Source: Rhodospirillaceae bacterium (GTDB lineage Bacteria > Pseudomonadota > Alphaproteobacteria > MPNO01 > UBA2964). From it: DNA of 64,000 bases. The notes beneath the pieces were generated by a model. It made no database searches. It saw only the letters and a list, made by a program, of their open reading frames with translations, and had not been told where the DNA came from. The stretch covers positions 153,989 to 217,988 of the forward strand of contig PAPV01000005.1 of the NCBI GenBank assembly GCA_002709075.1, written 5' to 3'. The position numbers and the translations under genes are program-made. Of the stretch, positions 4,861 through 21,986 are shown one piece after another (position 1 is the first letter of the stretch; the number at the start of each line of letters is the position of its first letter).

Positions 4861-6285
4861 TCATGGTAGATCTTTAAACCATTTTGAACGGATACGATCA
4901 TCCAATTCTTTTGATGACCTGGCTACAATTGGAAATGTCTCTTTTCGTCTAAACGGTCGGCACGCATCGATGACTGCGCGTGAATTGCGTCGATCAGTCT
5001 CATCATCATAACACATGGGATCAAGATGTGTACTCCAACATCCATTGATTATGTCTATGTCTTCCCGTAAATCTACACGTGTTGACATCGCCCATATCAC
5101 CTCATTGATATTTGAAGGGTCGATATCATCATCAACAACAATAGTCCACCGATTCGCATAAGCTCCGGCGTGACACTGTGAGGCAATGAGACCTGCTTGT
5201 TTTGCGTGCCCGCCGTACATTTGTTTTATAGAAACTGTAAGCCAAAAACGGCTGCCACCAGCTTCGTGCGCCCACACACCTTTTACTTCCGGAATCCCCG
5301 CTGCTTCCAACTGGCTCCATACTGCACCGCAGCGATAGATACCCAAATAAAAGGTATTATCGTTTGGGGGAACCGCCGGAATTGCTCCGACGAGTATAGG
5401 ATTGTCACGATGCATCAGGGTTTCAACTCTTATAGCTGGCTCAGGCCTACTCCCTCCAGCATAATACCCCGTCCATTCACCCAAGGGGCCTTCTTGAATT
5501 GTATCGTCTGGGTCTATAAAACCCTCAAAGGCTATTTCCGCATTAGCTGGCACCGGAAGGCTAGTCCTCGGCATGTTAAATATTTCAATTGGCTCTCCTA
5601 AAATTCCACCAGCTGCCTCATATTCACTTTTTCCGTAAGGAACCTCCAACCCGGCTAACATAAAAAGGGCTGGATGCATGCCTGCGACCACCGCAACAGG
5701 GCAGGATTCGCCTCTCTCGTGATACTTTTCCATCATCAGCCTACAGTGCTTTCCGGGCGACATCATTACACTTGCGGTTTTAGGGTTATGAGCTTGAACG
5801 CGGTACGCACCATAATTTATCCACCCTGTGTCAGGGTCTTTCATGACAACCATACAAGCTGTTCCAATGAATGCTCCTCCATCGTGTTCGTGCCAAACTG
5901 GAGTCGGGATTGAGGTTATGTCGACTTTTTCTCCCTCTGTAATATTCTCTAAAAGAGGTCCGCCATTTACAGCTTTTGGTGTTTCAATAGGGCCGTCTCG
6001 CATGTAGTCGCGCCACCAGCCAATTAATTCATTGATTGACGCCTCTGGTTTTAACCCCAATGCCACGTTTATACGTGGAATTGAAGTTAGGATATTTGCC
6101 AGAACGCGATGCCCTTCGGGAAATCCGGGGACTTGATCAAACATAACGGCCGCTGTTCCCATTGTGCGCATGTAAATGTCTACAATACCGCCTATTTCCT
6201 CTGTGGGTTCAGCACCTTTGATGGTTTTTAATTCGCCTATAGAGTCTATCGCCTCTATCCAATTGCGTAAATCTTTGTTGGCCAC
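4861..6285 (-). CDS. UbiD-family (prenyl-FMN dependent) decarboxylase, paralogue 1
   Basis: A 474-residue member of the UbiD family, which reversibly decarboxylates aromatic, heteroaromatic or alpha,beta-unsaturated acids using prenylated FMN made by UbiX. The catalytic set is present: Arg in 'NYGAYRVQ' (about residue 162) and the two glutamates of 'EGPLGEWTGYY' (about 265 and 270), matching the R-E-E triad of fungal Fdc1. I chose GTG 6285 because GAGAG lies 7 nt upstream and the family normally starts near 'KDLRNWI'; the open frame runs to 6345. It is transcribed divergently from molybdenum hydroxylase operon 1, suggesting a shared pathway on a (hetero)aromatic acid. Paralogues lie at 26602 and 32208. 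Confidence 0.9.
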   Translation of the reverse strand: MANKDLRNWIEAIDSIGELKTIKGAEPTEEIGGIVDIYMRTMGTAAVMFDQVPGFPEGHRVLANILTSIPRINVALGLKPEASINELIGWWRDYMRDGPIETPKAVNGGPLLENITEGEKVDITSIPTPVWHEHDGGAFIGTACMVVMKDPDTGWINYGAYRVQAHNPKTASVMMSPGKHCRLMMEKYHERGESCPVAVVAGMHPALFMLAGLEVPYGKSEYEAAGGILGEPIEIFNMPRTSLPVPANAEIAFEGFIDPDDTIQEGPLGEWTGYYAGGSRPEPAIRVETLMHRDNPILVGAIPAVPPNDNTFYLGIYRCGAVWSQLEAAGIPEVKGVWAHEAGGSRFWLTVSIKQMYGGHAKQAGLIASQCHAGAYANRWTIVVDDDIDPSNINEVIWAMSTRVDLREDIDIINGCWSTHLDPMCYDDETDRRNSRAVIDACRPFRRKETFPIVARSSKELDDRIRSKWFKDLP

Positions 6286-6350
6286 ACCTTTTCTCTCGCG
6301 TTTAAAAAACTTACATTCTAGGTCATTGCATTTTTCGACAAACACAAAGG

Positions 6351-6379
6351 TTGGTCAAGCTGAAAACTCAAGTTATTAT
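6351..6379 (+). promoter_or_regulatory. Candidate promoter of molybdenum hydroxylase operon 1
   Basis: TTGGTC (6351-6356), a 17-nt spacer and TATTAT (6374-6379) resemble a sigma-70 promoter in the divergent gap between the UbiD gene and the first hydroxylase gene, about 80 nt before the start at 6458. Motif-only evidence in AT-rich DNA. Confidence 0.3.
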
Positions 6380-6457
6380 ATCAGACAAGTTTTGGGGATA
6401 GAGCTGTGTGGGTGCTCGGTTTAACAAAAGTATTTTTTTTGGAGGCAAAGTTAAGCT

Positions 6458-7327
6458 TTGAAAGCAGCGAAATTTAAATATATACGCCCAAGTTCTTTAG
6501 ATGAGGCTATTAATTTGTTGTCAGATTTTGGCGAGGAAGCCCGTATTTTAGCTGGAGGTCAGAGCCTCTTGCCAACACTCAATATGCGTCTCTCTCAACC
6601 AAAAGTTTTGATTGATATAAATAGGTTGGATGAACTCCAAGGTATATCACATGAAGGCAAGCACATTCGTATTGGTGCATTGACAAGGCATGTGGATATT
6701 GCGGAGTCTGACCTGATTACAGAAAATATTCCACTCATATCAGAAGCCATAGAATATGTGGCGCATGTTGCTGTCCGAAATCGGGGCACTTTCGGAGGGT
6801 CTGTTGCCCTAGCTGACCCAGCAGCAGAAATGCCTGCATGCACCCTAGCTCTTCAAGGAACATTGGTTGTTGAAGGTCCAAATGGTCGAAGGCAGATTCG
6901 TGCTGACGATTTTTTTCACGATCTTTACGAGACTGCACGCGCTCCAGAGGAAATTCTTGTCGAAGTTCAACTACCGATAAGAAGATCTGGGGAGAGTTTT
7001 GCTTTTATGGAGTTATCTAGGCGCAAGGGCGATTATGCAATGGCAGGATTAGCTTGCAAAGCAACTTTTCAAGATAACAGATTCCTATCCGTACGTCTTG
7101 TTTATTTTGGCACTGAGCTAAAACCAACCCTTGGTGAAAATGTTATGTCACAGCTCGAAGGGAGAGAGTGGTCAGAGACTCTGGCAGAAAAGGTAATAGC
7201 TTCGCTAGAAGATGACCTTGATCCAGTTGATAACCTACAAGGAAGTGCGGCGATGAAATTGCACCTTCAAAAAGTGCTAACCAAGAGGACGTTGGCCGAA
7301 GTGGTGCAGAGATTAGGAAACGTTTAA
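6458..7327 (+). CDS. Molybdenum hydroxylase 1, FAD-binding medium subunit (CoxM/XdhB type)
   Basis: A 289-residue FAD subunit of the xanthine dehydrogenase/CO dehydrogenase family. It passes electrons from the iron-sulfur subunit to an acceptor. The FAD-binding motifs 'ILAGGQSLLPTLNMR' (about residues 30-45) and 'AVRNRGTFGGSVALADPAAEMP' (about 105-127) are clear, and the C-terminal CO_deh_flav_C domain follows. The length matches three-subunit enzymes; there is no 4Fe-4S insertion as in 4-hydroxybenzoyl-CoA reductase HcrB. It starts with TTG after GGAGG (6441-6445) with a rather long 12-nt spacing. It is first of three tightly packed genes; its stop overlaps the next start by 1 nt. Confidence 0.92.
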   Translation: MKAAKFKYIRPSSLDEAINLLSDFGEEARILAGGQSLLPTLNMRLSQPKVLIDINRLDELQGISHEGKHIRIGALTRHVDIAESDLITENIPLISEAIEYVAHVAVRNRGTFGGSVALADPAAEMPACTLALQGTLVVEGPNGRRQIRADDFFHDLYETARAPEEILVEVQLPIRRSGESFAFMELSRRKGDYAMAGLACKATFQDNRFLSVRLVYFGTELKPTLGENVMSQLEGREWSETLAEKVIASLEDDLDPVDNLQGSAAMKLHLQKVLTKRTLAEVVQRLGNV

Positions 7328-7818
7328 TGGCTTACGATTTCTTGGACATCAAGTTAATTGTTAATGGGGAACAGGTTTCAGCAAGGGTCCCGGCTCGCAT
7401 GCATCTTGTTGATTTTCTTCGAATGGAATTAGAACTGACAGGCTCACATCTTGGATGTGAGCATGGTATCTGTGGTGCTTGCTCAGTACGGGTTGACGGT
7501 GTTGTCGTACGTGGCTGTCTGGTGTTGGCTGCCCAATGTGATGGGTCAGATGTTTTGACAATAGAGGGGTTAAGCGAGAGCAAAGAAGTTGTTGACCTCC
7601 AAAATACATTTGTTGAACGGAACGCAATGCAGTGTGGTTTTTGCACACCAGGTATGCTTATGACAGCAGCCGAGTTGCTCGCTAAAAACGATAAGATGGC
7701 TAGAAATGAAATAAGGGAATTTATGTCTGGTAATTTTTGTCGATGCACTGGTTACCATGCAATAATTGATGCTATTGAAATAACTATGGAAGCCCGCAGA
7801 GAGGAAGAAAGGTCGTGA
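7327..7818 (+). CDS. Molybdenum hydroxylase 1, [2Fe-2S] small subunit (CoxS type)
   Basis: A 163-residue iron-sulfur subunit. The plant-ferredoxin-type cluster is held by Cys44, Cys49, Cys52 and Cys64 (motif CEHGICGAC...C), and the second cluster by Cys103/Cys106 (QCGFCTPG) and Cys138/Cys140 (FCRCTGYH). It relays electrons from the molybdenum site to FAD. It sits in TAATG overlap with the upstream FAD gene and in GTGA overlap with the downstream molybdenum subunit gene, so the three are one transcriptional and translational unit in the order M-S-L. Confidence 0.95.
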   Translation: MAYDFLDIKLIVNGEQVSARVPARMHLVDFLRMELELTGSHLGCEHGICGACSVRVDGVVVRGCLVLAAQCDGSDVLTIEGLSESKEVVDLQNTFVERNAMQCGFCTPGMLMTAAELLAKNDKMARNEIREFMSGNFCRCTGYHAIIDAIEITMEARREEERS

Positions 7819-10202
7819 AGAGTAAAGGCGCGATAACACCGTTGGATCGGCAACATTCTTATGTAGGGCGTAATTTATCTAGAGATAAAGCAAAGCGCGC
7901 GGTTAACGGACGCGGCCGTTACACGGATGATATAACATTGCCTCGAACTGTTCATGCAGCTTTCGTTCGTAGTCCATATGCACATGCAATGATTACTGAC
8001 ATAGATGTAGATATTGCTAAAGCTGAAGAGGGTGTTGTGTTAGTGATGACTGGCGCAGAATTAAAGGAATTGTGCACGGGGCCCTGGGTTGGGACATTGT
8101 CTGTGTTCCCCACAATGAAAACTGCACCGCAATACCCAATGGCTGTCGACCGGGCATGCTGGCAGGGTGAACCGGTGGTGATGGTGGTGGCAAATAGCCG
8201 AGCGGCTGCGGAGGATGCTGCGGAGTTGGTATCGATAACCTACAAAGAACTTCCGGTTGTTGCCCACAAGGAAACAGCGTTGGAAAAAAATTCGAATTTA
8301 GTGCATCCCGATCTTAAGGATAATTTGGCGTATGAGAAAGTTATTGATACTGGTGATGTTGGCGAAGCCTTTGCTGGGGCAGATCACGTAGTTGAAGCGA
8401 CTTTTGATTTTGGTCGCCACACGGCGGTTAGTCTTGAACCACGTGCAATTTTAGCATCCTTTGAAAAAGATACCGAAGAATTAACAATTTACACTAGCAG
8501 TCAAACACCACATATGTTTCAGGCTATTATTGCGCGCACTTTAGGTTTGCCGGAACACAAATGTAGAGTGGTAGCCCCTTTCGTAGGCGGTTCATTTGGA
8601 CTTAAAATTCATTCTTTTGGAGATGAATTTGCCGCCACAGCTGCATCACTAAAACTTGGTCGTCCCGTTAAATTCATTGCTGACCGGCTTGAATCTTTTT
8701 TAACCGACATTCATGCTAGAGAAAATACGGTAACAGGAAAAATGGCGGTATCCAGTCAGGGCAAGATAGAGGCTTTGGAAATAGATATTCTATCGGGAGT
8801 TGGAGCGTATTCGCAATACCCACGCACATCAGTGTTTGAAGCGAATCAGATTCTTAATATTACAGGTGGCCCTTACAAACATCAAAATTATAAAGCTCGA
8901 ATGCGGGTCGCTTACATGAATAAAGTTCCCACTAGTCAATACCGAGCAGTTGGTCATCCGATCGGAAATTCTGTTGGTGAAGCATTGGTTGATTTGGCTG
9001 CAGAGAAGATAGGTATGGACCCAGTAGAGATAAGACGACGGAATATCATGGAGGATAATTCATATCCCCGAACAACTGCATCGGGGATCGAAGTAGCAGA
9101 CATGTCTCATCAGAAATGCCTTGAAACATTAGTTGAGCGCATGAAATACGATGATCTAGTTCAAGAACGTAATTCTCTTCGAGCAGAGGGAATATTTCGC
9201 GGTATAGGTATTGCAGCTTTTATAAAAGGGACGGCTCCGGGACCAGCTGGATACTACGGTGCTGGAGGTGCGCCTATAGCTAGTCAAGATGCTGCAACCG
9301 TAAAGATAGAACCTTCAGGGAATATAATTTGTGCGGTGGGGGTTACAGATCAAGGGCAAGGCGTTGATACAGTTATGCAGCAAATTACCGCCGGAGCAGT
9401 TGGTGTGTTACCTGAGATGGTAAGGGTTATAGAGGGAGATACTGACGCAACCCCTTACGGGGGCGGCACCTATGCGTCACGTGCAACAGCAATTGGAGGT
9501 GAAGCCACCTACCAAGCGGCATTGGCGTTGCGGGCTGAGTTGCTTAGGCTTGCGGGAGCGCTTTTGCAGAGGGAACCCGAAACACTCGATATTATCGATG
9601 GCAATGTAGTGGACCTAGGAACAGAAAATATTCGTATGCCCCTTGCGGAAATTGGACGTATTGGTCATTTTCAGGTGGCCGAGCTACCAAACGATATTCA
9701 ACCACAACTATCACATACAAAAAGGTTCCGTCTAAATGATGCTCTATATATATTTACTAATGGCATACATGGTGCCTATGTTGAAGTCGATTGTGATACT
9801 GGATTTATAACACTTCTAAAACAATGGGTTGTGGAGGATTGTGGACGGGTAATAAACCCAATATTAGCCGATGAGCAAGTGCGAGGAGGAAGCGTTCAAG
9901 GGATAGGTGGTGCCCTATATGAACATTGTATTTATGACGACCAAGCTCAGTTACTTAATGGAAGCTTAATTGATTATTTGGTTCCAATGGCTTCGGAGAT
10001 GCCGGATATAGACGTAGCCCACGTTCAAACACATACTGGTGTTTCAGAATTAGGCTCAAAAGGGGTTGGAGAGTCAGGAACAGGCGCATCCCCCGCGGTT
10101 GTAATGAATGCGGTGAATGATGCGATAAGTCCATTTGAAGCAAAAGTTACGGTTCAGCCAATGACCCCAGATGTTCTTCTTAAAGCGCTAAATAGGATTT
10201 GA
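7815..10202 (+). CDS. Molybdenum hydroxylase 1, molybdopterin-binding large subunit
   Basis: A 795-residue catalytic subunit of the aldehyde oxidase/xanthine dehydrogenase large-subunit family. An N-terminal hammerhead domain ('VGRNLSRDKAKRAVNGRGRYTDD') is followed by cofactor-binding loops such as 'PFVGGSFGLK' and 'SQYRAVGHP', and the catalytic base Glu753 in 'KGVGESGTGA'. The CO-dehydrogenase loop AYRCSFR is absent, so this is a hydroxylase, not a CO dehydrogenase. It should oxidise a C-H next to a ring nitrogen or an aldehyde in the cytoplasm; the substrate cannot be read from sequence. It starts with GTG overlapping the small-subunit stop by 4 nt. Confidence 0.92.
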   Translation: MKSKGAITPLDRQHSYVGRNLSRDKAKRAVNGRGRYTDDITLPRTVHAAFVRSPYAHAMITDIDVDIAKAEEGVVLVMTGAELKELCTGPWVGTLSVFPTMKTAPQYPMAVDRACWQGEPVVMVVANSRAAAEDAAELVSITYKELPVVAHKETALEKNSNLVHPDLKDNLAYEKVIDTGDVGEAFAGADHVVEATFDFGRHTAVSLEPRAILASFEKDTEELTIYTSSQTPHMFQAIIARTLGLPEHKCRVVAPFVGGSFGLKIHSFGDEFAATAASLKLGRPVKFIADRLESFLTDIHARENTVTGKMAVSSQGKIEALEIDILSGVGAYSQYPRTSVFEANQILNITGGPYKHQNYKARMRVAYMNKVPTSQYRAVGHPIGNSVGEALVDLAAEKIGMDPVEIRRRNIMEDNSYPRTTASGIEVADMSHQKCLETLVERMKYDDLVQERNSLRAEGIFRGIGIAAFIKGTAPGPAGYYGAGGAPIASQDAATVKIEPSGNIICAVGVTDQGQGVDTVMQQITAGAVGVLPEMVRVIEGDTDATPYGGGTYASRATAIGGEATYQAALALRAELLRLAGALLQREPETLDIIDGNVVDLGTENIRMPLAEIGRIGHFQVAELPNDIQPQLSHTKRFRLNDALYIFTNGIHGAYVEVDCDTGFITLLKQWVVEDCGRVINPILADEQVRGGSVQGIGGALYEHCIYDDQAQLLNGSLIDYLVPMASEMPDIDVAHVQTHTGVSELGSKGVGESGTGASPAVVMNAVNDAISPFEAKVTVQPMTPDVLLKALNRI

Positions 10203-10310
10203 AACGCCTATTTTGCCATTATTTAAAATACGGAGATGGTATATTGGTGATACTTCCGGCGCTAAATTGCTTCGATTCGGTCACAATTTAAAGATATAGG
10301 TGATTTAAAA

Positions 10311-10802
10311 GTGGCAAGATTAATTGCATTTTCAAACTGTTATTTAAGTCTACCTGTAGTAACAATATTTATTTTTGTTGTATCCTCTTTTTCAACAAAT
10401 CTTGTTGCAAAATCCAATCCACTTCCAACTTTCCAGTGGAACAAGCGTATTCTTATCTTAGTAACTCCCAACACTGGTAACAAAAAATACGTTAAACAAA
10501 TCGAGATGATCAAAAATAAGCTCTTAGGCATAAAGGATCGTGACATTATTGTAATAAAAATTATAGATCAAAAATTATTAGGGGTGTCAAAAGAACAAAG
10601 TAGAGAAGGGGATGTGTTAGAAATTCTTAATTTATACAATCTGAACGGAAATAAATTTTCCATCTTACTGATTGGTAAGGATGGAGATGAAAAGGTTCGT
10701 TCTATCAATCCACTGAGTATGTGTATTTTCTTTGATCTTATAGACTCCATGCCAATGAGGAAGAATGAAATCTTGGAGCGAGGAAAGAATGTAAAATGCT
10801 AG
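10311..10802 (+). CDS. DUF4174 family exported protein
   Basis: A 163-residue protein with an N-terminal signal or anchor segment (residues about 10-33) and then a DUF4174 domain: 'FQWNKRILILVTP' at its start, 'SILLIGKDGDEKVRS' in the middle, and the characteristic 'DLIDSMPMRKNEI' at its end. The domain is thought to have a thioredoxin-like fold, but there is no CxxC and no function is known. It starts with GTG 10311 preceded by AGGTGA (10298-10303). It lies between the hydroxylase operon and the SDR gene on the same strand, but the gaps (108 and 25 nt) do not prove a shared role. Confidence 0.75.
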   Translation: MARLIAFSNCYLSLPVVTIFIFVVSSFSTNLVAKSNPLPTFQWNKRILILVTPNTGNKKYVKQIEMIKNKLLGIKDRDIIVIKIIDQKLLGVSKEQSREGDVLEILNLYNLNGNKFSILLIGKDGDEKVRSINPLSMCIFFDLIDSMPMRKNEILERGKNVKC

Positions 10803-10827
10803 TATTACCTATTTATTTGCGTAAATA

Positions 10828-11601
10828 ATGGATCTGGGACTAAAAGGAAAACGTGCACTTGTAATAGGCTCAACAAGTGGTTTAGGCGAAGGAATTTTAA
10901 GGCGCTTGGCGGCAGAAGGTGCTTTAGTCGCAGCTACTGGTCGGTCAACCAGAAAGGCTTTAAGAATTACGGCTGAACTTGCGGGGAGTAGGCCTTACAA
11001 GCTTGATTTACGCGATGAAAAATCTGTAGAAGATGCTATTGAAGCATTACAAAATGACTTTGGTGGTTTGGATATAATCGTTTGTAATAGTGGAGGACCT
11101 CCATCAGGGGCAATAATATCAATTGACCCAGAAGTATGGTATTCCCAATTCGAAATAATGTTCGTTAATCAACTGCGTATTGTAAATAACTTCCTGCCAA
11201 GTATGCGGAACCAAGGTTGGGGAAGAATTCTTATAGTAACTTCCTCAGGTGTTAAGCAACCAATTCCTAATTTGGGGATTTCCAATTCAATTCGTGGAGC
11301 TCAACTCGGTTGGGGAAAGACGCTAGCAAATGAAGTGGCGCAAGATGGGGTTACGGTAAATTTTTGCGCCCCAGGCCGAATTCAAACTGCAAGAGTCGAT
11401 GAACTGGATCTAGAGAATGCAAAAAAACAAAATAAGACTGTTGAAGAAATTCGTACGGCCAGTCGCGCTGGTATTCCAGTAGGTCGCTATGGAACAGTAA
11501 ACGAGTTCGCTGATGCGGCTGTTTTTCTTTTATCAAGTAACGCCAGTTATATAACCGGTTCTGTTATGCAGGTTGATGGTGGTTTAATAAGAGGTTTTTA
11601 A
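10828..11601 (+). CDS. Short-chain dehydrogenase/reductase
   Basis: A 257-residue classical SDR. The Rossmann nucleotide site is 'IGSTSGLGEGI' (TGxxxGxG variant), with 'CNSGGPPSG' replacing the usual NNAG. In place of the usual catalytic YxxxK, the expected site reads 'NSIRGAQLGWGKTLANEV': Ser is seen in 'TSSGVKQP', but the Tyr is not in its normal spot. This is the pattern of the divergent FabG-like group in which a GGP motif replaces NAG. The C-terminus has 'SYITGSVMQVDGGLIRGF', typical of SDRs. It probably reduces or oxidises a pathway intermediate; the missing canonical Tyr makes the reaction uncertain. Confidence 0.85.
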   Translation: MDLGLKGKRALVIGSTSGLGEGILRRLAAEGALVAATGRSTRKALRITAELAGSRPYKLDLRDEKSVEDAIEALQNDFGGLDIIVCNSGGPPSGAIISIDPEVWYSQFEIMFVNQLRIVNNFLPSMRNQGWGRILIVTSSGVKQPIPNLGISNSIRGAQLGWGKTLANEVAQDGVTVNFCAPGRIQTARVDELDLENAKKQNKTVEEIRTASRAGIPVGRYGTVNEFADAAVFLLSSNASYITGSVMQVDGGLIRGF

Positions 11602-11820
11602 TTTGTTTTCTTTATTTATTTCCCGTGTTTTTATCCAGGCTAAGGAGATAGATGTTAAGAATTATGTGTTCTCTGGTTGCTAATTTAATAATTTACATTT
11701 GGCGTGTTTGACTTCCAGTCTATTTACGCAGATTGTTGCTTAGGAAATTAATTAGGCTCACTTTAGTCTTATGTAAAAGTAAAACAAAGCTATCTGTCTC
11801 ACTATCTGAACGGAGTTTGC

Positions 11821-13017
11821 ATGAAAACTGCGGTTGTAAATATTGGGGATATTATTACCGGGGATTGGAAAAATCCTAGAGCAGTTGGTGACACCATTTT
11901 GATGGTGGATGGGAAGATTGTTTCCGTAGGTTCTGATCCTTTACAAGGAGTAACTGATTGTGATGTAGTGATTGATGCTGATGGGGCTACTGCGGTTCCA
12001 GGTTTTATTGACTCACAAATTCATAACACTTTCGGAGACTATACACCACGTCAGAAAACAGTAGGATTTTTGGAGTCATACGTTCACGGAGGCACCACAA
12101 CCGGGATAACTGCCTGCGAAGTACATGTCACCGGCCGACCTACGGACCCTGAGGGGGTAAAAGCGCTGGCAATTGCGGCAAACAAAAGTTTTAAGAGTTG
12201 GCGCCCTGGAGGTATGCGGTTTTGGGCTGGGTCTGTTATCCTCGAGCCAGGCCTTATCAAGGATGATTTTAAGGAATTATCTTCCAAAGGAGTTTGGCTT
12301 GCCAAAGCGGGTTTTGGTGGAGTGAACACACCATATGATTACGTACCGATGGTTAAGTGGGCACGGGAGCACGGGATGATAACAACAGTACATACTGGAG
12401 GTGGATCGATACCCGGTTCTTCTGGGATATGGGCGGATCATTTGTTGGCGATGCAACCGCATGTTTCATTCCATGTTAATGGAGGGCCTACAGCAATGCC
12501 GGATGAGGATTTTCCTCGGCTTGTTGAGGAAAGTGATATTGCTCTTCAGGTTTGCACTGCAGGAAACTTACGTACTCTTCTGATGACTGCAGAGTTGATA
12601 ATGAATGCCAATCAATTTGATCGTTTTCTAATTGCAACTGACACGCCCACTGGATCGGGCATCATGCCATTAGGAATGATGTATACGATAACTCATCTAG
12701 CAAGTCTTACTGATATACCAGTAGAATATGCTATTGCTGCAGCCACGGGAAATAACGCTCGGATTTACAATCTTAATTGCGGCTTTTTGCGTGTCGGTTG
12801 CGATGCAGATTTGCTTTTGCTTGATGCTTGTGTTGGTTCCTCAAAAGATAATGCCCTTGACGGGTTGCGCAATGGAGACATAGTTGCTGTTGCAGCCGTG
12901 GTTACAGACTCAGTTCCGAGATTTGTAGGGCAAAGCCGAAATACACCTGCCGCTAAGAAAAATATTCGGGTCGTTGAATGTCATCTGCCGATGGACTTCT
13001 CCGGCTCAGACTATTAG
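11821..13017 (+). CDS. Enamidase-like amidohydrolase
   Basis: A 398-residue amidohydrolase whose whole length resembles the enamidase of nicotinate-fermenting Eubacterium barkeri as I recall it; that enzyme hydrolyses 1,4,5,6-tetrahydro-6-oxonicotinate. Shared stretches include 'DYTPRQKTVGF', 'GRPTDPEGVKALAI', 'HTGGGSIPGSS' (His191), 'HVNGGPTA' (His218), 'ATDTPTGSGIMPLGM' (Asp274) and the C-terminal 'SRNTPAAKK'. Oddly, the HxH motif of the metal site reads 'DSQIH', with Gln66 replacing the first His and His68 kept; Lys162 lies where the bridging ligand is expected. It may therefore bind a single metal or act on a different cyclic amide. ATG start after CGGAG. It is followed 10 nt later by the broken gene. 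Confidence 0.8.
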   Translation: MKTAVVNIGDIITGDWKNPRAVGDTILMVDGKIVSVGSDPLQGVTDCDVVIDADGATAVPGFIDSQIHNTFGDYTPRQKTVGFLESYVHGGTTTGITACEVHVTGRPTDPEGVKALAIAANKSFKSWRPGGMRFWAGSVILEPGLIKDDFKELSSKGVWLAKAGFGGVNTPYDYVPMVKWAREHGMITTVHTGGGSIPGSSGIWADHLLAMQPHVSFHVNGGPTAMPDEDFPRLVEESDIALQVCTAGNLRTLLMTAELIMNANQFDRFLIATDTPTGSGIMPLGMMYTITHLASLTDIPVEYAIAAATGNNARIYNLNCGFLRVGCDADLLLLDACVGSSKDNALDGLRNGDIVAVAAVVTDSVPRFVGQSRNTPAAKKNIRVVECHLPMDFSGSDY

Positions 13018-13027: not shown

Positions 13028-13954
13028 ATGCGTATTGCGTCTGTAGATCTTATAAGCAACACCTGTTTTCCGGCGTTGACAGCGGATGCCTTGGGATTTT
13101 TTGAGCAAGAAGGGGTGGAAGTCGAAATTTCATTAGTTGCGGCTTTGGGTGCCACTAAGGCTTTAAAAAATAATTCTGTAGATGCAATGATAGCAGGTTC
13201 TGTTCACGATGTGCTCACCGAATTTGATCATTGGTAGGGAGCTAGTATTTGCGTTGCACTTAGCCAGGGAACACCGTGGCTTTTGACCATGCGCAAAGAA
13301 TTTGAGGCCGAGCGCGGTGACTTTCTATCTCTCAAAGATTGTACCCTTACGGCGGCAGAGGGACCAGATTTAGCATTTAAACAAGTTTTGCAGACTGGTG
13401 GTATTGATCCCAACCAAGACGTTAAAATTATTGAGTTGCCGGGAGCTAAATCAGAAAATGTCTCCTTTGGTGTATTTGCAGCTGAAAAATTAGCGAGTGG
13501 GTGTGTCGATGGTTTTTGGGCCAATGCAATCGGAGCAGAAAAGGCGATTGCATCAGGTTTAGGCAAGCTATATTTGGATGTGCGTAGAGGCGACGATCCT
13601 GGTTTTACTAGGTATTTTAGCTTTGCTGGACTTGTTGTACGAGATGATTTTATAGAAAGAGAGGGTAACCAAGTTGACGCTGCGGTTCGTGCCATTATTC
13701 GGGCGCAGTCGGCATTGAGAAGGGACCCCATGCTGGCCACAAGAATAGGGGAAAAAAAGTTTCCAAAAGATACGGCAAAGCTGATCAGCAACGTTATTTC
13801 GCGTGATGTCGAATTTTATGATCCATTTATCTCAAAGGAGTGTGTCAGACACCTAAACAATTTTGCCCGATCAATTGGACATATTAGATATGACGTTACG
13901 TATGATGAGGTTGTTTCGTTGAAACATAAACCTCTTTGGATTAAGGATTTGTGA
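13028..13954 (+). pseudogene. NMT1/THI5-like (ABC substrate-binding fold) gene interrupted by an in-frame TAG
   Basis: Reading from ATG 13028 (AGGGAGA just upstream), 69 codons are followed by TAG at 13235-13237, after which the same frame stays open for 238 more codons to the stop at 13952. The two parts make one periplasmic-binding-protein-like fold: N-terminal 'FPALTADALGFFEQEGVEVEI' typical of NMT1/THI5 proteins, then 'ALSQGTPWLLTMRKEF' and the rest. There is no frameshift and no other damage, so the break is a single nonsense codon: recent, a sequencing error, or read through. No signal peptide is visible, so it may be cytoplasmic rather than a true uptake protein. It directly follows the enamidase-like gene. 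Confidence 0.8.
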
Positions 13955-14017: not shown

Positions 14018-14707
14018 TTAATACTGCTGTATTTCTTTTAAATATTTTAATACGTCTTTGAGTTTCATTACATCGGCGTATTTATGGTGCATGTCAAATA
14101 GATTTACCTTATGATTTATCGGAGTTCTATCATAACAGCATTCCTCTACCAAAGTTATATGAAATCCATTTGCCTTGGCATCCTGCACCCCAGCGCGAAG
14201 ACAGCCCGACGTAGTCCCCCCCCCAATAATGAGGCTCTGAACTCCGAGAGTGATAAGATGAGACATCAACGGAGTGCCGTAAAAACAACTTGCACGCTGT
14301 TTGTATATAATTAGGTCGTCGGCTTGAGGTGCCAGCTCCGGCAGGATTTCATATGCATTATCTGATTGGGTCATATTAACTCTGTTTGTAGGTCTTCCTC
14401 GTTCTGCTCTACTTCTCGCATCTCCTGTAGAATAAATTATTGGTAGACCGGCTGCGCGGGCCGCTCTAAGTAATTGTTTTCCAGGTTCAACCATAGCCCA
14501 TGCCCGTTCACCGCAGGAACTAGGATGATCTTTAATAACGTCTAATACAGGTTGTTGACCTCCATCGTAGCTAGCCTGGTAAACATCAATCATTAAAATT
14601 GCTGGTTTGGGTCCAATCTTTAGTGGGCGCTGATAAGCGCCGTAAATTTTTAGGGTTTCCTCATCAATAATGTCTTTCCAGCAGTAGTCTTCAAATGTTT
14701 CTGTCAT
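14018..14707 (-). CDS. Isochorismatase-family cysteine hydrolase (amidase)
   Basis: A 229-residue cysteine hydrolase with the catalytic triad Asp41 ('LMIDVYQ'), Lys136 ('IIYKQRASCF') and Cys169 ('GGGTTSGCLRAG'), the last preceded by the usual cis-peptide region. Relatives include N-carbamoylsarcosine amidase, nicotinamidase and maleamate amidohydrolase (NicF), which release ammonia from amides. Beside an enamidase-like gene and molybdenum hydroxylases, an open-chain amide such as a maleamate-type intermediate is a plausible substrate, but this is inference. ATG start with AAAGGA 8 nt upstream. It is transcribed toward the broken gene and divergently from the MFS gene. Confidence 0.85.
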   Translation of the reverse strand: MTETFEDYCWKDIIDEETLKIYGAYQRPLKIGPKPAILMIDVYQASYDGGQQPVLDVIKDHPSSCGERAWAMVEPGKQLLRAARAAGLPIIYSTGDARSRAERGRPTNRVNMTQSDNAYEILPELAPQADDLIIYKQRASCFYGTPLMSHLITLGVQSLIIGGGTTSGCLRAGVQDAKANGFHITLVEECCYDRTPINHKVNLFDMHHKYADVMKLKDVLKYLKEIQQY

Positions 14708-15019: not shown

Positions 15020-16288
15020 ATGCTTCGAAAGAAAAATGTTGATCCAGCAACAATTTTAATTGGTTCTATCACCATGTTGTTTATAACTGCTGCTGCTTCG
15101 CACTTGGTGGCAATCTCTTTGAAAGATATGACTGTAGATTTTGGTGGAGGGCGTACCATTCCTTCTTCTGCATTTGCTCTAACCTATGCAGGATCTGGCA
15201 TTGGCGGGATATTGATGGGCTGGGTGGTGGATCGTTACGGGTTTGCAATACCGGCATTTGTTGGTGCCATAATGGTAAGTCTTGGGGCATTTTTAACGTC
15301 TATCGTTGAGCATTCGTGGCAGCTTCTTACAATTTACGCAATAATGTTTGGACTGTCCGGGCAGGGTGCACTCGCGGGTCCGGCTATGGCTAATATTTCT
15401 CGTTGGTATGACAAGGGTCGCGCCAGAGCTGTTGGAATGGTTTCAAGCGGTCAAGCACTCGCTGGGATAGTGTGGTTACCAATTTTTGGCTGGGCAATAG
15501 ATATTGTTGGTTGGCGAGATCTTTACTATCTCTTTGGTGCCGTTTCCTTAATGATTTTAATGCCTATTGCTTGGATGATCCGGCACCGGCCGCCAAAACA
15601 ATTACCAGTGAGAAGGAATATTCCAAAGCAAAAACGATCGGAGCTCATGAATAATGGGTTTGATACTTCGCAAAAACCACCAAAACTCTCCGATACTTCC
15701 ATTCAGATCTTACTAACAATATCGATTTTAGGCTGTTGTCTGGCTATGGCCATGCCCTTAGCACATTTGGTCGCCTTGGTAACGGATGTGGGTTACTCAA
15801 GAATTGAAGGGGCAACAGTTTTGTCAACAGTCTTATTTGCGGCATTTTTAAGCAGAGCAATTCTGCTTGGGTTAATAGCGGGAAGGATAGGTGGTTTGTG
15901 GTCATTATTAATATTCTCGAGTGTACAAGGGCTCATGCTTGGACTTTTCACTATAGCAGAGCACTTATGGGTTCTTTACGCGTGCGCCATATTATTTGGT
16001 TTAGGATATGGCGGAATTTTCCCGATTTATGCTGTTGTAGTTCGTGAGCATTTACCAAGTACACAAACTGGCTGGCGCACCGGGGTAGTTTTCGGAGCGG
16101 GCGCGATAGCGATGGGTGCAGGTGGGTGGTTAGGGGGGGTCTTGTTCGACTCTACCGGATCTTACGAGATGCCATTTTTAGTTGGTGTTACCACAAATGC
16201 CTTCAATGTCCTTTTAATTGGATCGCTTATTGCGATTGTGAAACCGCTTACTCTGGGGCTTGACTCTTTAAATTCAAATTCCAATTAA
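15020..16288 (+). CDS. Major facilitator superfamily transporter
   Basis: A 422-residue membrane protein with about 12 hydrophobic helices split by a cytoplasmic loop around residues 190-225. Between helices 2 and 3 is 'GWVVDRYG', the MFS motif A region, with its repeat 'GLIAGRIGG' in the second half. Its overall look is that of the monocarboxylate/oxalate-formate-antiporter-like group common next to alphaproteobacterial catabolic genes. It probably imports the acid substrate of the neighbouring pathway, but direction and substrate are unknown. The ATG has no visible ribosome-binding site. Confidence 0.88.
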   Translation: MLRKKNVDPATILIGSITMLFITAAASHLVAISLKDMTVDFGGGRTIPSSAFALTYAGSGIGGILMGWVVDRYGFAIPAFVGAIMVSLGAFLTSIVEHSWQLLTIYAIMFGLSGQGALAGPAMANISRWYDKGRARAVGMVSSGQALAGIVWLPIFGWAIDIVGWRDLYYLFGAVSLMILMPIAWMIRHRPPKQLPVRRNIPKQKRSELMNNGFDTSQKPPKLSDTSIQILLTISILGCCLAMAMPLAHLVALVTDVGYSRIEGATVLSTVLFAAFLSRAILLGLIAGRIGGLWSLLIFSSVQGLMLGLFTIAEHLWVLYACAILFGLGYGGIFPIYAVVVREHLPSTQTGWRTGVVFGAGAIAMGAGGWLGGVLFDSTGSYEMPFLVGVTTNAFNVLLIGSLIAIVKPLTLGLDSLNSNSN

Positions 16289-16592: not shown

Positions 16593-17450
16593 ATGAAACC
16601 TGCTAGTTTTAATTATCATTCCCCCTCCACTCTAGAAGAGGCAATCACACTACTCGCTCGTTTCGCGGAAGACGATGGTAGAATACTTGCAGGTGGTCAG
16701 AGCCTCACACCGACTATGGCTTTTCGTCTCGCTCGACCCGGTCATTTAATAGATATAAATAACATTGAGGATATTAAAGCTGTTTTAGTCAAAAAGGATA
16801 AACTTGTAATTGGAGCAGGCGTTCGTCATGCGAAATTCCATGAGCCAGTTTGTGATGGTCCCCTAGGTCTTCTCCTCTCACGGGTGGTAGAAAATATTGC
16901 ACACTTGCCTATTCGCTTACGAGGAACATTCTGCGGTTCTCTTGCTCATGCAGATCCTGCGTCTGAATGGTGTGCTGTAGCCGCAACACTGGATGCTAAA
17001 CTTATAGCAAAAAGTACATCTGGTGAAAGGGAAATAGAGGCTCAGGATTTTTTTGAGACCGTAATGACTACCGCATTAAAAGAGAACGAAATGTTGGTAG
17101 AAGTCCATCTTCCTCTGTTGCCGACAAATACAAAATTCGGATTCGAAGAATTCAGCCGTAGGGCTGGTGATTTTGCCTTGACTATGGCGTTGGTTGTTTG
17201 GGAGGAAAATGGAGGAAAAATAAAAAATGCTAGAATTGGCCTTGGTGGGGTAGAAGATCGTCCGCGCCGAATTCTAGCGGCTGAGGAAATCTTAAACAAT
17301 GCCGTGCCGTCTGATGAAGTGTTTCGAAAAGCTGCTGAAATTGCGGCCGATAATGTTGATCCAATAGAAGACCATGCCACTCCAGCCAATTACCGACGCG
17401 ATTTAGTTAAGGCTCTGACTCGGCGAGCTTGTGAACAAGCGAGTATGTGA
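16593..17450 (+). CDS. Molybdenum hydroxylase 2, FAD-binding medium subunit
   Basis: A 285-residue FAD subunit of the CoxM/XdhB family. FAD motifs are 'ILAGGQSLTPTMAFR' and 'PIRLRGTFCGSLAHADPASEW'. It shares the domain plan of the gene at 6458 but is clearly not a recent copy. It begins with ATG after AAGGA. Its TGA stop overlaps the start of the iron-sulfur gene, so operon 2 has the same M-S-L order as operon 1. Confidence 0.92.
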   Translation: MKPASFNYHSPSTLEEAITLLARFAEDDGRILAGGQSLTPTMAFRLARPGHLIDINNIEDIKAVLVKKDKLVIGAGVRHAKFHEPVCDGPLGLLLSRVVENIAHLPIRLRGTFCGSLAHADPASEWCAVAATLDAKLIAKSTSGEREIEAQDFFETVMTTALKENEMLVEVHLPLLPTNTKFGFEEFSRRAGDFALTMALVVWEENGGKIKNARIGLGGVEDRPRRILAAEEILNNAVPSDEVFRKAAEIAADNVDPIEDHATPANYRRDLVKALTRRACEQASM

Positions 17451-17926
17451 TGGAAAAACATGATATTAAACTTACTATTAATGGAAAGGTTTACGACGTA
17501 TCTGTCGAGCCGAGGCGCACCTTAGTCGATGTAATACGAGATCAATGCGGTCAAACCGGTACACACAGTGGTTGTGAACATGGTGTTTGTGGTGCCTGCA
17601 CTGTTTTGCTAGACGGGGATCCAGTTAGATCCTGCCTGATGTTTGGTGTGCAAGCTAACGGGAAAGAAATTCGAACGGTTGAAGGACTGGCTGAAGGAAA
17701 AAATTTGCATCCATTGCAGCAGGCATTTACAGATAACCATGCATTACAATGTGGTTATTGTACACCGGGATTTTTAATGTTGGCAGCAGGCGTGCTCGAG
17801 AAAAACCCAGATATTAGTGACGAGGAATTGGTTGACGCACTTTCTTCGAATTTATGCCGCTGCACCGGCTATGCCAATATTATTACGGCAGTAAAAGCTG
17901 CGGCGGAACAAATGCGAGCTGGCTGA
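17447..17926 (+). CDS. Molybdenum hydroxylase 2, [2Fe-2S] small subunit
   Basis: A 159-residue iron-sulfur subunit with cluster ligands Cys43, Cys48, Cys51 and Cys63 (CEHGVCGAC...C) and the second set in 'QCGYCTPG' and 'LCRCTGYA'. It starts at GTG 17447 or the adjoining ATG 17450; both overlap the stop of the FAD gene. It overlaps the large-subunit start by 1 nt. Its role is electron transfer from molybdopterin to FAD. Confidence 0.95.
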   Translation: MMEKHDIKLTINGKVYDVSVEPRRTLVDVIRDQCGQTGTHSGCEHGVCGACTVLLDGDPVRSCLMFGVQANGKEIRTVEGLAEGKNLHPLQQAFTDNHALQCGYCTPGFLMLAAGVLEKNPDISDEELVDALSSNLCRCTGYANIITAVKAAAEQMRAG

Positions 17927-20250
17927 TGGCCACCGCGAAGAAGCGGATTCTCGGGCGGCGGCTCAGACGCTTGGAGGACCCGCCTCTTATAAATGGTAAA
18001 GGTCGATTTGCGGATGATATTAATTTTCCGCACCAACTGCATATGCGCATCCTTCGAAGCCCATATGCACATGCAGAACTTATATCTGTCGACAAGACAG
18101 AAGCATTAAAGGTCCCTGGTGTAGTTGATGTATGGGAGTACAAAGACATCGCAGATCTCGGCCCTATCGACTTTCGTGCAGATAAATCCGCGGAGGAATT
18201 GAAGGCATTTCGCCAATATTGCTTAGCAAAAGACAGAGTCCGCTATGTTGGTGACCCTATCGCTGCTGTATTTGCCGAGGATCCTTACATTGCAGAGGAC
18301 GCAGTTGAATTCATAACAATCAATGCGGATCCGCTTCCGGTCATCTCAAGTGCTGATCAAGAACCGGGAGAGTTTAAGCCAGGTTTGAGTTCAGAAGCTG
18401 GACTTTTGACACACTCTTTTGGTGAAACTGAACGTCCTTTTGAAGATGCCTATTTAGTTGTTGAAGTTGATCTGCGTACTGGCAGGCATTCCGGAGTTCC
18501 AATGGAAACTCGTGGTGCAATAGGAGTTCACAATAAAGCTTCAGACGTCTTAGAATTGTATGGAGCTGCAAAAATTCCGCACCGTAATCGTGATACTTTG
18601 GTAAGAATGCTAAACCGAGCCCCTGCGAAAATACATCTTCATGAGGGACATACGGGTGGGGGATTTGGTATTAGAGGTGAACTTTACCCTGAGGATGTTC
18701 TTGTTCTTTTGGCTGCTGAACGTCTAGGACGCCCTGTAAAATGGATAGAAGACAGACAGGAGCATATGATGGCAGCAAATCAGGGTCGAAACCAACATCA
18801 TATGGCTCAAATGGCATTTGATAAGGATGGCAAAATTCTTGGTATGAAAGACGAGTTCTGGCATGACCAGGGCGCTTATGTTCGTACTCATGGAGCCAAC
18901 GTTCCAAATCGAACGATGTGTATGCTGACAGGGGCGTATAGAGTTCCTTCCTTTAGAGCTAAATGTCATTTTCGTTTGACTAACAAGACTCCTGCGGCCA
19001 CCTATCGCGCCCCAGGAAGGTTTGAGTCGACTTTTGTACGTGAGCGCATGATGGACATCGCCGCAGATAGATTTGGAATTGATCGAATTGAAATCCGGCG
19101 ACGAAACCTTATCGGTGCAGATGAGATGCCCTTTAAAATTAGTTTTGACGAACCAGGTTTAGAGGCGCTCATTTTTGACTCAGGCGACTATTTGACGCTT
19201 TTGGACAAGGCATTAGACCACTTTCAATGGGAAGCTCTTGAAACGAGTTTGGCTAAACGCCGTCTAAATGGTGAACTTGTAGGTTGTGGATTGGGGATTT
19301 TTGTTGAAGAAAGCGGAAAAGGACCAGTCGACGGGGCTCGAATATCTGTTGACAACAATGGTGATATTGAAGTCCTGACTGGTGGCGCATCTGTTGGACA
19401 AGGATTCGAGACTACTATGGGTCAAATAACAGCTGAAGCGCTTGGTGCCGATTACAATAAAATAACGGTTATACACGGTCAGACCGACAGAATTCCATAC
19501 GGTATAGGAGCCCATGCGGCGCGGGCGACTGTGATGACTGGAAGTGCCGTGAATATTACGGCGCAGAAAGTTAAAGAAAAAGCGTTGGATGTTGCATCCG
19601 AGATGCTTCAAATGCCAGCTGACACCCTCGAAATCGAAAATAGTGTTGTCTTTGTAGCCGAAAATCCTTCTGGGCCTACTGTTTCCTTGGCTGAGATAGC
19701 TAAACGGTTGGCTCCTGGGTCTAGAGACCTTGGTGGAAGAGAGCCAAATCTTTCCGCGGAAGGTTTTCATAACACTTCTGAAAGTGCATTTCCATATGGA
19801 GTCCATTTTGCAGTTGTAAAAATTGATCCTGATACCGGTCACGTAAAGGTTGAAAGGTTTATGGTAGGTTATGATGTCGGTTGTGTTGTTAACCAGATGT
19901 TGCTTGAAGGTCAGTTAGTTGGCGGTTGTGTCCAAGGGATAGGAGGCGCTCTTTTCGAAGAGTTCTCTTATTCTGAGGAAGGAGAGCCACTGGCTGTTAC
20001 GCTTGCTGACTATCTTTTGCCAACTATGGATTGTGCGCCGAAGGTGGAATGCATGGTCACTGAGGATGCACCAAGCCCTACGAATTTGCTTGGGTTAAAA
20101 GGTGGTGGAGAAGGTGGCATTAACGGAGTAGCTGCGGCAATTGCCGGAGCAATAGATAATGCAATAGGAAAAGTGGGCGCGGTGACCCAATTGCCTGTTA
20201 CACCACAGCGCATGAAACAAATACTTTATGAAATTGGGTTAGGAGAGTGA
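17926..20250 (+). CDS. Molybdenum hydroxylase 2, molybdopterin-binding large subunit
   Basis: A 774-residue catalytic subunit. The N-terminal hammerhead domain begins near 'ILGRRLRRLEDPPLINGKGRFADD'; cofactor loops include 'GHTGGGFGIRGEL' and 'ATYRAPGRFE', and the catalytic Glu729 is in 'GGGEGGING'. The CO-dehydrogenase Cys loop is absent. The frame is open upstream to 17854, but ATG 17926, overlapping the small-subunit stop, is the natural start. The 'RAPGR' loop and 'GEGG' differ from 'RAVGH' and 'GESG' in hydroxylase 1, so the two enzymes probably take different substrates or successive intermediates. The next gene begins 1 nt after its stop. Confidence 0.92.
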   Translation: MATAKKRILGRRLRRLEDPPLINGKGRFADDINFPHQLHMRILRSPYAHAELISVDKTEALKVPGVVDVWEYKDIADLGPIDFRADKSAEELKAFRQYCLAKDRVRYVGDPIAAVFAEDPYIAEDAVEFITINADPLPVISSADQEPGEFKPGLSSEAGLLTHSFGETERPFEDAYLVVEVDLRTGRHSGVPMETRGAIGVHNKASDVLELYGAAKIPHRNRDTLVRMLNRAPAKIHLHEGHTGGGFGIRGELYPEDVLVLLAAERLGRPVKWIEDRQEHMMAANQGRNQHHMAQMAFDKDGKILGMKDEFWHDQGAYVRTHGANVPNRTMCMLTGAYRVPSFRAKCHFRLTNKTPAATYRAPGRFESTFVRERMMDIAADRFGIDRIEIRRRNLIGADEMPFKISFDEPGLEALIFDSGDYLTLLDKALDHFQWEALETSLAKRRLNGELVGCGLGIFVEESGKGPVDGARISVDNNGDIEVLTGGASVGQGFETTMGQITAEALGADYNKITVIHGQTDRIPYGIGAHAARATVMTGSAVNITAQKVKEKALDVASEMLQMPADTLEIENSVVFVAENPSGPTVSLAEIAKRLAPGSRDLGGREPNLSAEGFHNTSESAFPYGVHFAVVKIDPDTGHVKVERFMVGYDVGCVVNQMLLEGQLVGGCVQGIGGALFEEFSYSEEGEPLAVTLADYLLPTMDCAPKVECMVTEDAPSPTNLLGLKGGGEGGINGVAAAIAGAIDNAIGKVGAVTQLPVTPQRMKQILYEIGLGE

Positions 20251-20251
20251 T

Positions 20252-21238
20252 ATGGCAAAATTGAAACTGACTCTCGCTGTTGGAGATTATGAGATTGTTC
20301 GTGCACTTAAAGAGGGAACGATAGAAGCAGACGGTATTGAACTTAATGTGATGACTAATATGGACTCTACGACGCGACACTGGCGTTTTTTACGAAACGG
20401 GGATTTTGATGTTGCAGAGTGTTCTTGTTCCTCATATTTAGTTGCGCGCGATCAGGGTATGCCCTTTGACGGCATTCCTATTTTTTTACATAGAAGGTTT
20501 CGACACGGTTTTATATTTATAAACACTCATAAGGGAATAAAAAAACCCGAAGATTTAAAAGGCCGCAAAGTTGGGGTTAAGCAATATCAATCTAGCGCTC
20601 AACTGTGGATGCGTGGATTATTGGAGCATCAATACCGTGTGCCTCATCGGTCAATTGAATGGTTTTCGGAACTAGATGAGAGTATTGAGTTTGAAAAGCC
20701 GGATGATCTTCATTTGGAACGCTTACCTAATAATAAAAGTGTTGAAAAAATGTTGGTTAGTGGTGAATTGGATGCAGTTATGCATCCTGACCTTATTCAA
20801 CCGCTGATTGATGGAGATAAACGAGTTGGAAGACTTTTTTCTAACTTTAAAGAGGAAGAAAAAGCTTTTTTCAGACGGACTGGAATATTCCCAATAATGC
20901 ATGTTTTAGGCATTAAGCGCGAAATAGTAAAGAATAACCCTTGGGTACCGATTAATCTTTATCATGCCTTTAATGAAGCAAAAGCATTAGCGATGAAACG
21001 CATGGTGAACCCTCGCATTATCCCTCTAGCTTGGTATAGAGAGGCCTGGGAAGAACAGGAAAATATTCTGGGGCTGGATCCTTGGGAATATGGTATGACG
21101 AAAAACAATGAAAAGCAGCTAAAGTTACTTGTAGATTTCTCTCGTGAACAGGGAATGATTAAACGCGATATTTCATTAGATGAATTGTTTCTGAGTGTTA
21201 ATCAAGGGCGAAAAAGAGGTGATGTTTTTCGTGTGTAG
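20252..21238 (+). CDS. 4,5-dihydroxyphthalate decarboxylase-like / periplasmic-binding-fold protein
   Basis: A 328-residue protein resembling the 4,5-dihydroxyphthalate decarboxylase (Pht5) group: 'LTLAVGDYEIVRALKEG' at the start, 'GDFDVAECSCSSYLVA', 'RRFRHGFIFIN' and 'DLKGRKVGVKQYQSSAQLW'. The group shares the type 2 periplasmic-binding fold, but there is no signal peptide here, so it should act in the cytoplasm and may be an enzyme rather than an uptake protein. It starts 1 nt after the molybdenum hydroxylase 2 large subunit and is surely co-translated with it, so it belongs to the same pathway. Whether it decarboxylates anything is not shown. Confidence 0.78.
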   Translation: MAKLKLTLAVGDYEIVRALKEGTIEADGIELNVMTNMDSTTRHWRFLRNGDFDVAECSCSSYLVARDQGMPFDGIPIFLHRRFRHGFIFINTHKGIKKPEDLKGRKVGVKQYQSSAQLWMRGLLEHQYRVPHRSIEWFSELDESIEFEKPDDLHLERLPNNKSVEKMLVSGELDAVMHPDLIQPLIDGDKRVGRLFSNFKEEEKAFFRRTGIFPIMHVLGIKREIVKNNPWVPINLYHAFNEAKALAMKRMVNPRIIPLAWYREAWEEQENILGLDPWEYGMTKNNEKQLKLLVDFSREQGMIKRDISLDELFLSVNQGRKRGDVFRV

Positions 21239-21311
21239 ATTGAGTCATCTATAGAACATGTCCGTGTGGTATTAAGAACAAAATATTTTCCGTAAAATAA
21301 GGTATTAGCTT

Positions 21312-21986
21312 ATGTCTTACAGAACAAAAATTACCGCAGAAGATGGACATGAATTCAATGTTACTCGTTCTGATGCTAATAATTTTATCGGAAGTATTGT
21401 TATTTTGCATGCTGTTTACGGTGTAACACGCCATATAGAAAATTTGTGTGATCAATTTGCGGGCCAAGGAATCTCTGCTTTAGCACCCTGGATATTTGAC
21501 CGAGGTCATCCCGAAGTTGTTTATCCGTATGGGCAACAAGGGACTGATTCCGGTCAAAAGATGTATTCAAAAATTCCCGAGAAAAATATTCTTTTAGATA
21601 TCGAAGCTTGTTTGATCGATCAGAAAAAGGCTGGTCCGGTAGCATTATGTGGATTTTGTACGGGGGGTACTTGGGCATGGGTTGGAGCAAACACACTCAA
21701 TTTTGATGCTGCAATTTGTTATTATGGTTCGCAGATATATGATCATATTGACCGGAAACCTGTGTGTCCCACAGAAATACATTACGGAGATTCTGACTTT
21801 GTTGTTCCGATGCCGGTGATTCGAAGAATTATGAAAAGGCATCCGGAGGTGCGCACACATATATATTCTGATCAGAATCATGCGTTTTTTAACCCAGAAC
21901 AGAAATTTTACGATGCTGAAGCAGCCGACTTGCTTTGGGAAAGGTCGCTAACTTTTTTACGAAAAATTTTCATATTAAAGAAATAA
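21312..21986 (+). CDS. Dienelactone hydrolase family protein
   Basis: A 224-residue alpha/beta hydrolase with the dienelactone hydrolase layout: nucleophile Cys116 in 'GFCTGGTWAW' (Cys is characteristic of this family), an acid at Asp160 or Asp162 in 'YGDSDFVVP', and His190 in 'DQNHAFFNP'. Dienelactone hydrolases open enol-lactones late in aromatic ring breakdown. It lies 73 nt after the Pht5-like gene on the same strand and is the likely last gene of operon 2. The exact lactone or ester is unknown. Confidence 0.88.
   Translation: MSYRTKITAEDGHEFNVTRSDANNFIGSIVILHAVYGVTRHIENLCDQFAGQGISALAPWIFDRGHPEVVYPYGQQGTDSGQKMYSKIPEKNILLDIEACLIDQKKAGPVALCGFCTGGTWAWVGANTLNFDAAICYYGSQIYDHIDRKPVCPTEIHYGDSDFVVPMPVIRRIMKRHPEVRTHIYSDQNHAFFNPEQKFYDAEAADLLWERSLTFLRKIFILKK

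Follow-up and report, generated by a model that had tools for sequence, protein, structure and literature searches.

Do the catabolic genes crowded into positions 4861-21986 of a Rhodospirillaceae contig form one pathway, and on what kind of compound would they act? The interval lies in a window of 64,000 nucleotides (contig PAPV01000005.1 of assembly GCA_002709075.1, positions 153,989 to 217,988; coordinates below are those of the window), and an initial annotation had taken it for a catabolic island in which a UbiD decarboxylase, two molybdenum (Mo) hydroxylases, an enamidase-like amidohydrolase, an isochorismatase-fold amidase and a Pht5-like protein serve one mixed pathway for an N-heteroaromatic carboxylic acid. 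Comparison of the open reading frames of the interval with Pfam, NCBIfam and the PDB recovered every family that had been named, each in its assigned place. These families, together with the likeness of the Mo hydroxylases to N-heteroaromatic enzymes, bear out the assignment to ring-acid catabolism. Rather than a single island, however, the region appears to be a mosaic for aromatic, probably N-heteroaromatic, carboxylic acids, drawn from two separately conserved alphaproteobacterial modules, a reading to which we give an even chance.

The first of these, module A, consists of UbiD1, a predicted prenyl-FMN-dependent decarboxylase (4861-6345, minus strand; PF01977, E 1.5e-60; PDB 7pda, E 5.5e-110), facing Mo hydroxylase 1 (6458-10202, plus strand), whose FAD (6458-7327), 2Fe-2S (7327-7818) and Mo (7815-10202) subunits were identified with Pfam. 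UbiD1 retains intact NYGAYR and EGPLGE motifs, and the NxxxxR and EGPxGE motifs, which we take to provide the Glu-Arg-Glu network of UbiD enzymes, are also present in two further paralogues of the window, UbiD2 and UbiD3; assignment to the family thus draws on three UbiD domains as well as on this network. Members of the UbiD1 clade are 59-89% identical to UbiD1, and the next UbiD reaches at most 44%. Module A, with UbiD1 divergent from MoFAD1-FeS1-MoL1, is kept in five relatives (G001, G002, G004, G005 and G006).

In module B, Mo hydroxylase 2 (16593-20250, plus strand; FAD 16593-17450, 2Fe-2S 17447-17926, Mo subunit 17854-20250, by Pfam) is followed after 1 bp by a Pht5-like gene of the 4,5-dihydroxyphthalate decarboxylase family (20252-21238, plus strand). 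Homology to 9jp7, a solved member (E 6.6e-56), places the product in that family and makes it a predicted decarboxylase; Pfam puts it near NMT1-type binding proteins. The succession of MoL2 and Pht5 recurs in eight relatives (G001-G007 and G012); in several of them, additional Mo hydroxylases and a member of the UbiD1 clade (about 70%) are found alongside. Pht5-like orthologues that are 53-81% identical adjoin Mo hydroxylases and UbiD1-clade genes. In other Alphaproteobacteria, Mo hydroxylases do show conserved company with UbiD or Pht5-like genes, the kind of co-occurrence whose absence the initial annotation had named as grounds for refuting it.

How these parts are arranged was followed by searching close relatives with the enamidase-like protein, the Pht5-like protein and UbiD1 and comparing the resulting neighbourhoods; relatives bearing names are uncultured Alphaproteobacteria/Rhodospirillaceae metagenome-assembled genomes (MAGs), and record names suggest a marine origin. 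Positions on the complete chromosome of G005 (one 4.15 Mb contig) are 1.04 Mb for the orthologue of the enamidase-like gene, 1.37 Mb for module A and 3.26 Mb for module B, that is, three unlinked loci about 0.3-2.2 Mb apart, and a single pathway comprising all of them is therefore not conserved. The sister genome of the same genus (G001; loci L059 and L060) keeps the frame of the region and exchanges cassettes within it: hydantoinase-like and DHDPS-like genes occupy the place of the enamidase-like gene, Pht5 is separated from the dienelactone hydrolase by a CoA ligase and a TauD-family gene, and VOC protein-like and ring-hydroxylating dioxygenase-like genes replace the flavin monooxygenase. 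As to the linkage of modules A and B in the sister, both of its contigs end there.

A scan of genome contigs by Pht5 alignment widened the comparison to 80 loci, mostly from Hyphomicrobiales/Rhizobiales MAGs and isolates. Counts were taken over the 67 that span 9 kb or more, with the window's own locus excluded; some of these come from the window's own lineage and several are near-duplicates within genera, and so they are not independent samples. A Mo hydroxylase lies within about 10 kb at 27 of the 67, and a UbiD1-clade gene is present at 15, every one of which also has a Mo hydroxylase. Other recurrent neighbours are a TctC-type binding protein (33/67), an XRE-type regulator (15/67) and a flavin monooxygenase (14/67). 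The pairing is also found in cultured Rhodovulum and Propylenella, and Pht5 occurs without a Mo hydroxylase in Ensifer and Phyllobacterium. C-N hydrolases belong to some of the clusters, as an isochorismatase (L068, L071 and L087), an amidase (8/67), a polysaccharide-deacetylase family protein (L112) or a hydantoinase-like protein (L060); a cyclic imide hydrolase with the deacetylase fold is already known from the fungal breakdown of nicotinate (PMC9304392). At L112, from the isolate Rhodovulum sp. 12E13, genes for an amidase and for a protein of the polysaccharide-deacetylase family (possibly a cyclic imidase) accompany a Mo hydroxylase/Pht5/UbiD cluster, which makes this strain a convenient cultured test organism. 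Tentatively, and with more doubt than confidence, the pattern may be extended to a widespread and previously undescribed alphaproteobacterial route for N-heteroaromatic carboxylates, such as pyridine mono- or dicarboxylates, in which Mo hydroxylases, UbiD1-clade and Pht5-like enzymes would lead to interchangeable cyclic-amide hydrolases, and which in this lineage would form part of a UbiD expansion.

The nature of the substrate is approached through the Mo hydroxylases, both of which have the three-subunit FAD/2Fe-2S/Mo architecture of the XDH family and its catalytic Glu, in the motif GVGESG in MoL1 and GGGEGG, residue 750, in MoL2. The nearest PDB relative of MoL1 is quinoline 2-oxidoreductase (1t3q; E 1.5e-132, 447 bits), with CoxL close at 412 bits, and that of MoL2 is 6-hydroxypseudooxynicotine dehydrogenase (7dqx), at 591 bits, the runner-up reaching 398. 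Oxidation of CO was ruled out for both enzymes, since AYxCSFR, presumably the active-site motif of form I CO dehydrogenase, is absent from both Mo subunits; oxidation of xanthine was ruled out for MoL1 by scores far under the NCBIfam cut-offs and weak PDB scores, and for MoL2 because no xanthine dehydrogenase is among its PDB matches at E <=1e-60. Purine or CO-type oxidation, which the initial annotation had given as examples of unrelated pathways, thus does not account for them. Because pyridine and quinoline rings are the substrates of the closest solved Mo hydroxylases, an N-heteroaromatic acid, as first proposed, is a reasonable expectation, although the compound itself is not nameable from sequence. 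Mo hydroxylases are also frequent in the degradation of N-heterocycles (PMC4548258).

Several points weigh against the mosaic N-heteroaromatic reading. The nearest PDB relatives would not in themselves fix a substrate, C-N hydrolases are missing from most of the 67 Pht5 loci, and modules A and B lie about 1.9 Mb apart in G005, so that their union in the window may be due to chance. In Rhizobiaceae, moreover, the Pht5 orthologue occurs with a flavin monooxygenase, a class II aldolase, an amidohydrolase_2 protein and a Rieske oxygenase, and with no Mo hydroxylase, a setting that fits a carbocyclic acid equally well. It is conceivable, if somewhat unlikely, that the region handles carbocyclic aromatic acids (phthalate-like, lignin-derived or benzene polycarboxylates), with UbiD and Pht5 decarboxylating hydroxylated benzenoids and the Mo hydroxylases oxidising aldehydes or CoA-bound aromatics. 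The nearest solved relative of Pht5 is indeed 4,5-dihydroxyphthalate decarboxylase, and the Rieske oxygenase that accompanies the Rhizobiaceae orthologues carries a LigXa C-terminal domain. Their Pht5 gene is divergent from a flavin ring monooxygenase (at L105, L109, L111, L114, L117, L124, L125, L130, L131, L135, L138, L144 and L152) that is 59-61% identical to the flavin aromatic-ring monooxygenase of the window (28803-30437, plus strand; PF01494, E 6.9e-76), and genes resembling ring-hydroxylating dioxygenases occur close to UbiD2 in the sister. Yet MoL2 scores far higher against the pyridine-ring hydroxylase (591 bits) than against 4-hydroxybenzoyl-CoA reductase (227 bits), and a carbocyclic substrate would leave the amidase genes without an obvious role.

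The Rhizobiales cluster deserves mention in its own right: at L105, L109, L111, L114, L117, L125, L130, L138 and L144 the monooxygenase, divergent from Pht5, is followed by the class II aldolase and amidohydrolase_2 genes, with a LigXa-type Rieske oxygenase nearby. This is apparently an unassigned ring-acid pathway, carried by cultured Ensifer and Sinorhizobium.

The nicotinate-like route first proposed includes the enamidase-like amidohydrolase (11821-13017, plus strand). Its homology to 2VUN is clear (phmmer, E 6.6e-97, over residues 2-384), and 2VUN is its sole strong PDB match. Its metal site is altered: in an alignment that included 2VUN together with 22 orthologues and 18 paralogues, the protein has Q, H, K, H, H and D at H67, H69, E164, H193, H220 and D276 of 2VUN, which we take to be the metal-site residues, and two of the six thus differ from the Eubacterium barkeri enamidase whose role had been proposed for it. 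Gln at the first His (His67) and Lys at the bridging position (Glu164) are found in all 23 members of the orthogroup, and the paralogues keep His67 in 18 of 18 and Glu164 in 14 of 18. In the amidohydrolase superfamily, a carbamylated Lys can serve as the metal bridge, and some sites have no H-x-H pair and hold a single metal. Judged by these residues, the window protein may well be an active hydrolase and would not merit the name enamidase; the Q-x-H/Lys subgroup cautions against the label enamidase for genes of this sort. Paralogues of about 38-40% identity with an intact H-x-H lie directly beside Mo subunits in G002, G004, G005, G006 and G007 (L044-L048), and are more promising than the window gene as members of an enamidase-type pathway.

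The surroundings of the enamidase-like orthologues differ as well. Neighbourhoods anchored on them, the comparison that the initial annotation had proposed, share an AA_synth-type gene, which adjoins the orthologue in 19 of 20 loci (L013-L034) and is lacking beside the window copy, and do not share the modules of the window, so that the single-island reading was dropped. The AA_synth label of this partner is a reading of its sequence, with no Pfam result for that protein; the genes that the Pfam AA_synth model finds in the window's own genome (G000) match it at 42-45%, and the two AA_synth genes of this genome are probably other paralogues. Two tandem AA_synth genes lie beside a Mo-hydroxylase Mo subunit at G000:C14:47645-48753. 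Near the orthologues of families f2 and f3 are also LLM-type flavin monooxygenase, Rieske oxygenase and maleate isomerase-like genes, so named from sequence.

The candidate for nitrogen release is the isochorismatase-fold amidase (14018-14707, minus strand; PF00857, E 8.7e-26; PDB 3ot4/3uao, E 5.4e-26). It has the conserved Lys (in YKQRASCFYGT) and the TTSGC segment of maleamate amidases and N-carbamoylsarcosine hydrolases, two substrates that these residues do not tell apart, and matches N-carbamoylsarcosine amidohydrolase at E 3e-24. The Lys and the nucleophile Cys of TTSGC are presumably the catalytic residues, and the catalytic Asp falls outside the aligned stretch. With Mo hydroxylases, enamidase and maleamate-type amidase acting in series, the genes could be read as one integrated nicotinate/picolinate-like pathway that combines the E. 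barkeri route with the aerobic one. All lie within 17 kb, the amidohydrolase and the amidase have 2VUN and 3ot4/3uao as their closest solved relatives, and maleate isomerase-family (Amdase) genes are found elsewhere in the genome. We nevertheless regard this proposal, in essence that of the initial annotation, as highly doubtful: the enamidase-like gene is present at 0 of the 67 other Pht5 loci, has no match in the sister genome (an assembly 86% complete), keeps another partner and differs at its metal site throughout the orthogroup, and the parts are unlinked in G005.

A further explanation is suggested by the genome at large, which in 2.5 Mb encodes 28 UbiD proteins, 22 Mo-hydroxylase Mo subunits and one UbiX. 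Among 188 Alphaproteobacteria sampled outside the family, UbiD genes number 0-11 (none in 104, 1-3 in most others), and members of the order mostly have 25-45 UbiD candidates and 6-18 Pht5-like matches; the Mo-hydroxylase count is high and not unique. A literature search found no report of this UbiD expansion, which suggests a lineage specialised in the decarboxylation of aromatic acids, possibly those of refractory dissolved organic matter. With so many genes of both kinds, neighbours would arise partly by chance, and UbiD genes within 5 kb of a Mo hydroxylase show a weak excess over random placement (6 observed, 2.3 expected, P ~0.02). The region might then be a plastic site that gathers unrelated catabolic cassettes with no shared pathway, as the several cassette differences from the sister and one gene broken by a stop codon would allow. 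This we think unlikely, because the pairs within each module keep the same order and orientation from genus to genus.

The mosaic reading, with modules A and B serving ring acids, is therefore retained on the strength of intact UbiD motifs together with the presence of UbiX, the conservation of both modules, the recurrence of C-N hydrolases and the exchange of cassettes in the sister. From these we infer a common compound and an order of steps. The acid would enter through a carboxylate-type transporter, and the Mo hydroxylases would add water-derived oxygen to an electron-poor ring carbon next to nitrogen. The resulting oxo or hydroxy ring acid would be decarboxylated by prenyl-FMN-dependent UbiD, by the Pht5-like enzyme or by both. 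A lactam- or imide-like product would then be opened by a replaceable cyclic-amide hydrolase, enamidase-like in the window and hydantoinase-like in the sister, and the isochorismatase-fold amidase would release the nitrogen.

Between and beyond the modules lie further genes. Both of those overlooked in the initial annotation are on the plus strand: a DUF4174 gene (10311-10802; PF13778, E 1.9e-28) and an NMT1-type solute-binding protein gene (13028-13954, from its translation) with an in-frame TAG at 13235. An intact 316-residue orthologue of the latter, 69% identical, is found in the sister (L060:3815-4765); the view that the gene is a 5'-truncated fragment beginning at a TTG at 13283 was rejected in favour of a frame of full length interrupted once, by that TAG. 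Also on the plus strand are an SDR oxidoreductase (10828-11601; PF13561, E 3.5e-43; 59% in the sister), an MFS transporter of monocarboxylate/oxalate type (15020-16288; PF07690, E 2.5e-31), whose top NCBIfam model, L-lactate MFS, scores under its cut-off, and a dienelactone hydrolase family protein (21312-21986; PF01738, E 5.7e-32; sister orthologue 57%). Catabolic genes run on past 21986 to about 37 kb, with UbiD2 (26602-28113, minus strand; PF01977, E 3e-60; sister orthologue 77%), the flavin monooxygenase, a GMC oxidoreductase and UbiD3 (32208-33746, minus strand; PF01977, E 4.7e-64) within 12 kb, and with others that include an enoyl-CoA hydratase-like protein, named from sequence with no family search. 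On the other side, near a tRNA-Ser at 926-1015, the region is flanked at 1981-4726 by genes given names in the same way: one for a binding protein of zinc ABC type that is rich in His-Gly-His repeats, the other for a nickel/cobalt-type transporter.

With the E. barkeri nicotinate route the window shares a Mo hydroxylase and an enamidase-family protein, but the latter has Q for His67 and K for Glu164, and the Mo subunit of nicotinate dehydrogenase is made of two chains (3hrd_A and 3hrd_B) where that of the window is one. The likeness to the aerobic nic pathway lies in the amidase, whose best PDB match, 3ot4/3uao, includes what we take to be NicF, maleamate amidase (3uao); the match covers about 160 residues with a moderate score, and N-carbamoylsarcosine amidohydrolase is equally near. 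In agreement with the initial annotation, 6-hydroxynicotinate reductase and, from the aerobic nic/pic pathway, 2,5-dihydroxypyridine dioxygenase (NicX) and N-formylmaleamate deformylase (NicD) are not among the Pfam-annotated genes of the interval, no genome-wide search having been made. The nearest solved relatives of MoL2 and MoL1, 7dqx and 1t3q, match over nearly their full length, and MoL2 and 7dqx have the segment YRAPGR(Y/F)ESTF in common, but the window pairs its Mo-hydroxylase genes with decarboxylases. Those decarboxylases are in turn homologous over nearly their full length to 7pda (UbiD family, PA0254), with the UbiD catalytic motifs, and to 9jp7, and differ from both in that the two kinds recur in one Mo-hydroxylase cluster. 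A literature search found no described pathway that combines Mo hydroxylase, UbiD and Pht5-like enzymes. The interest of the locus lies in this conserved combination and in the UbiD expansion, and the repeated association of UbiD and Pht5-like decarboxylases with Mo hydroxylases provides a testable gene set for a ring-acid pathway lacking assignment.

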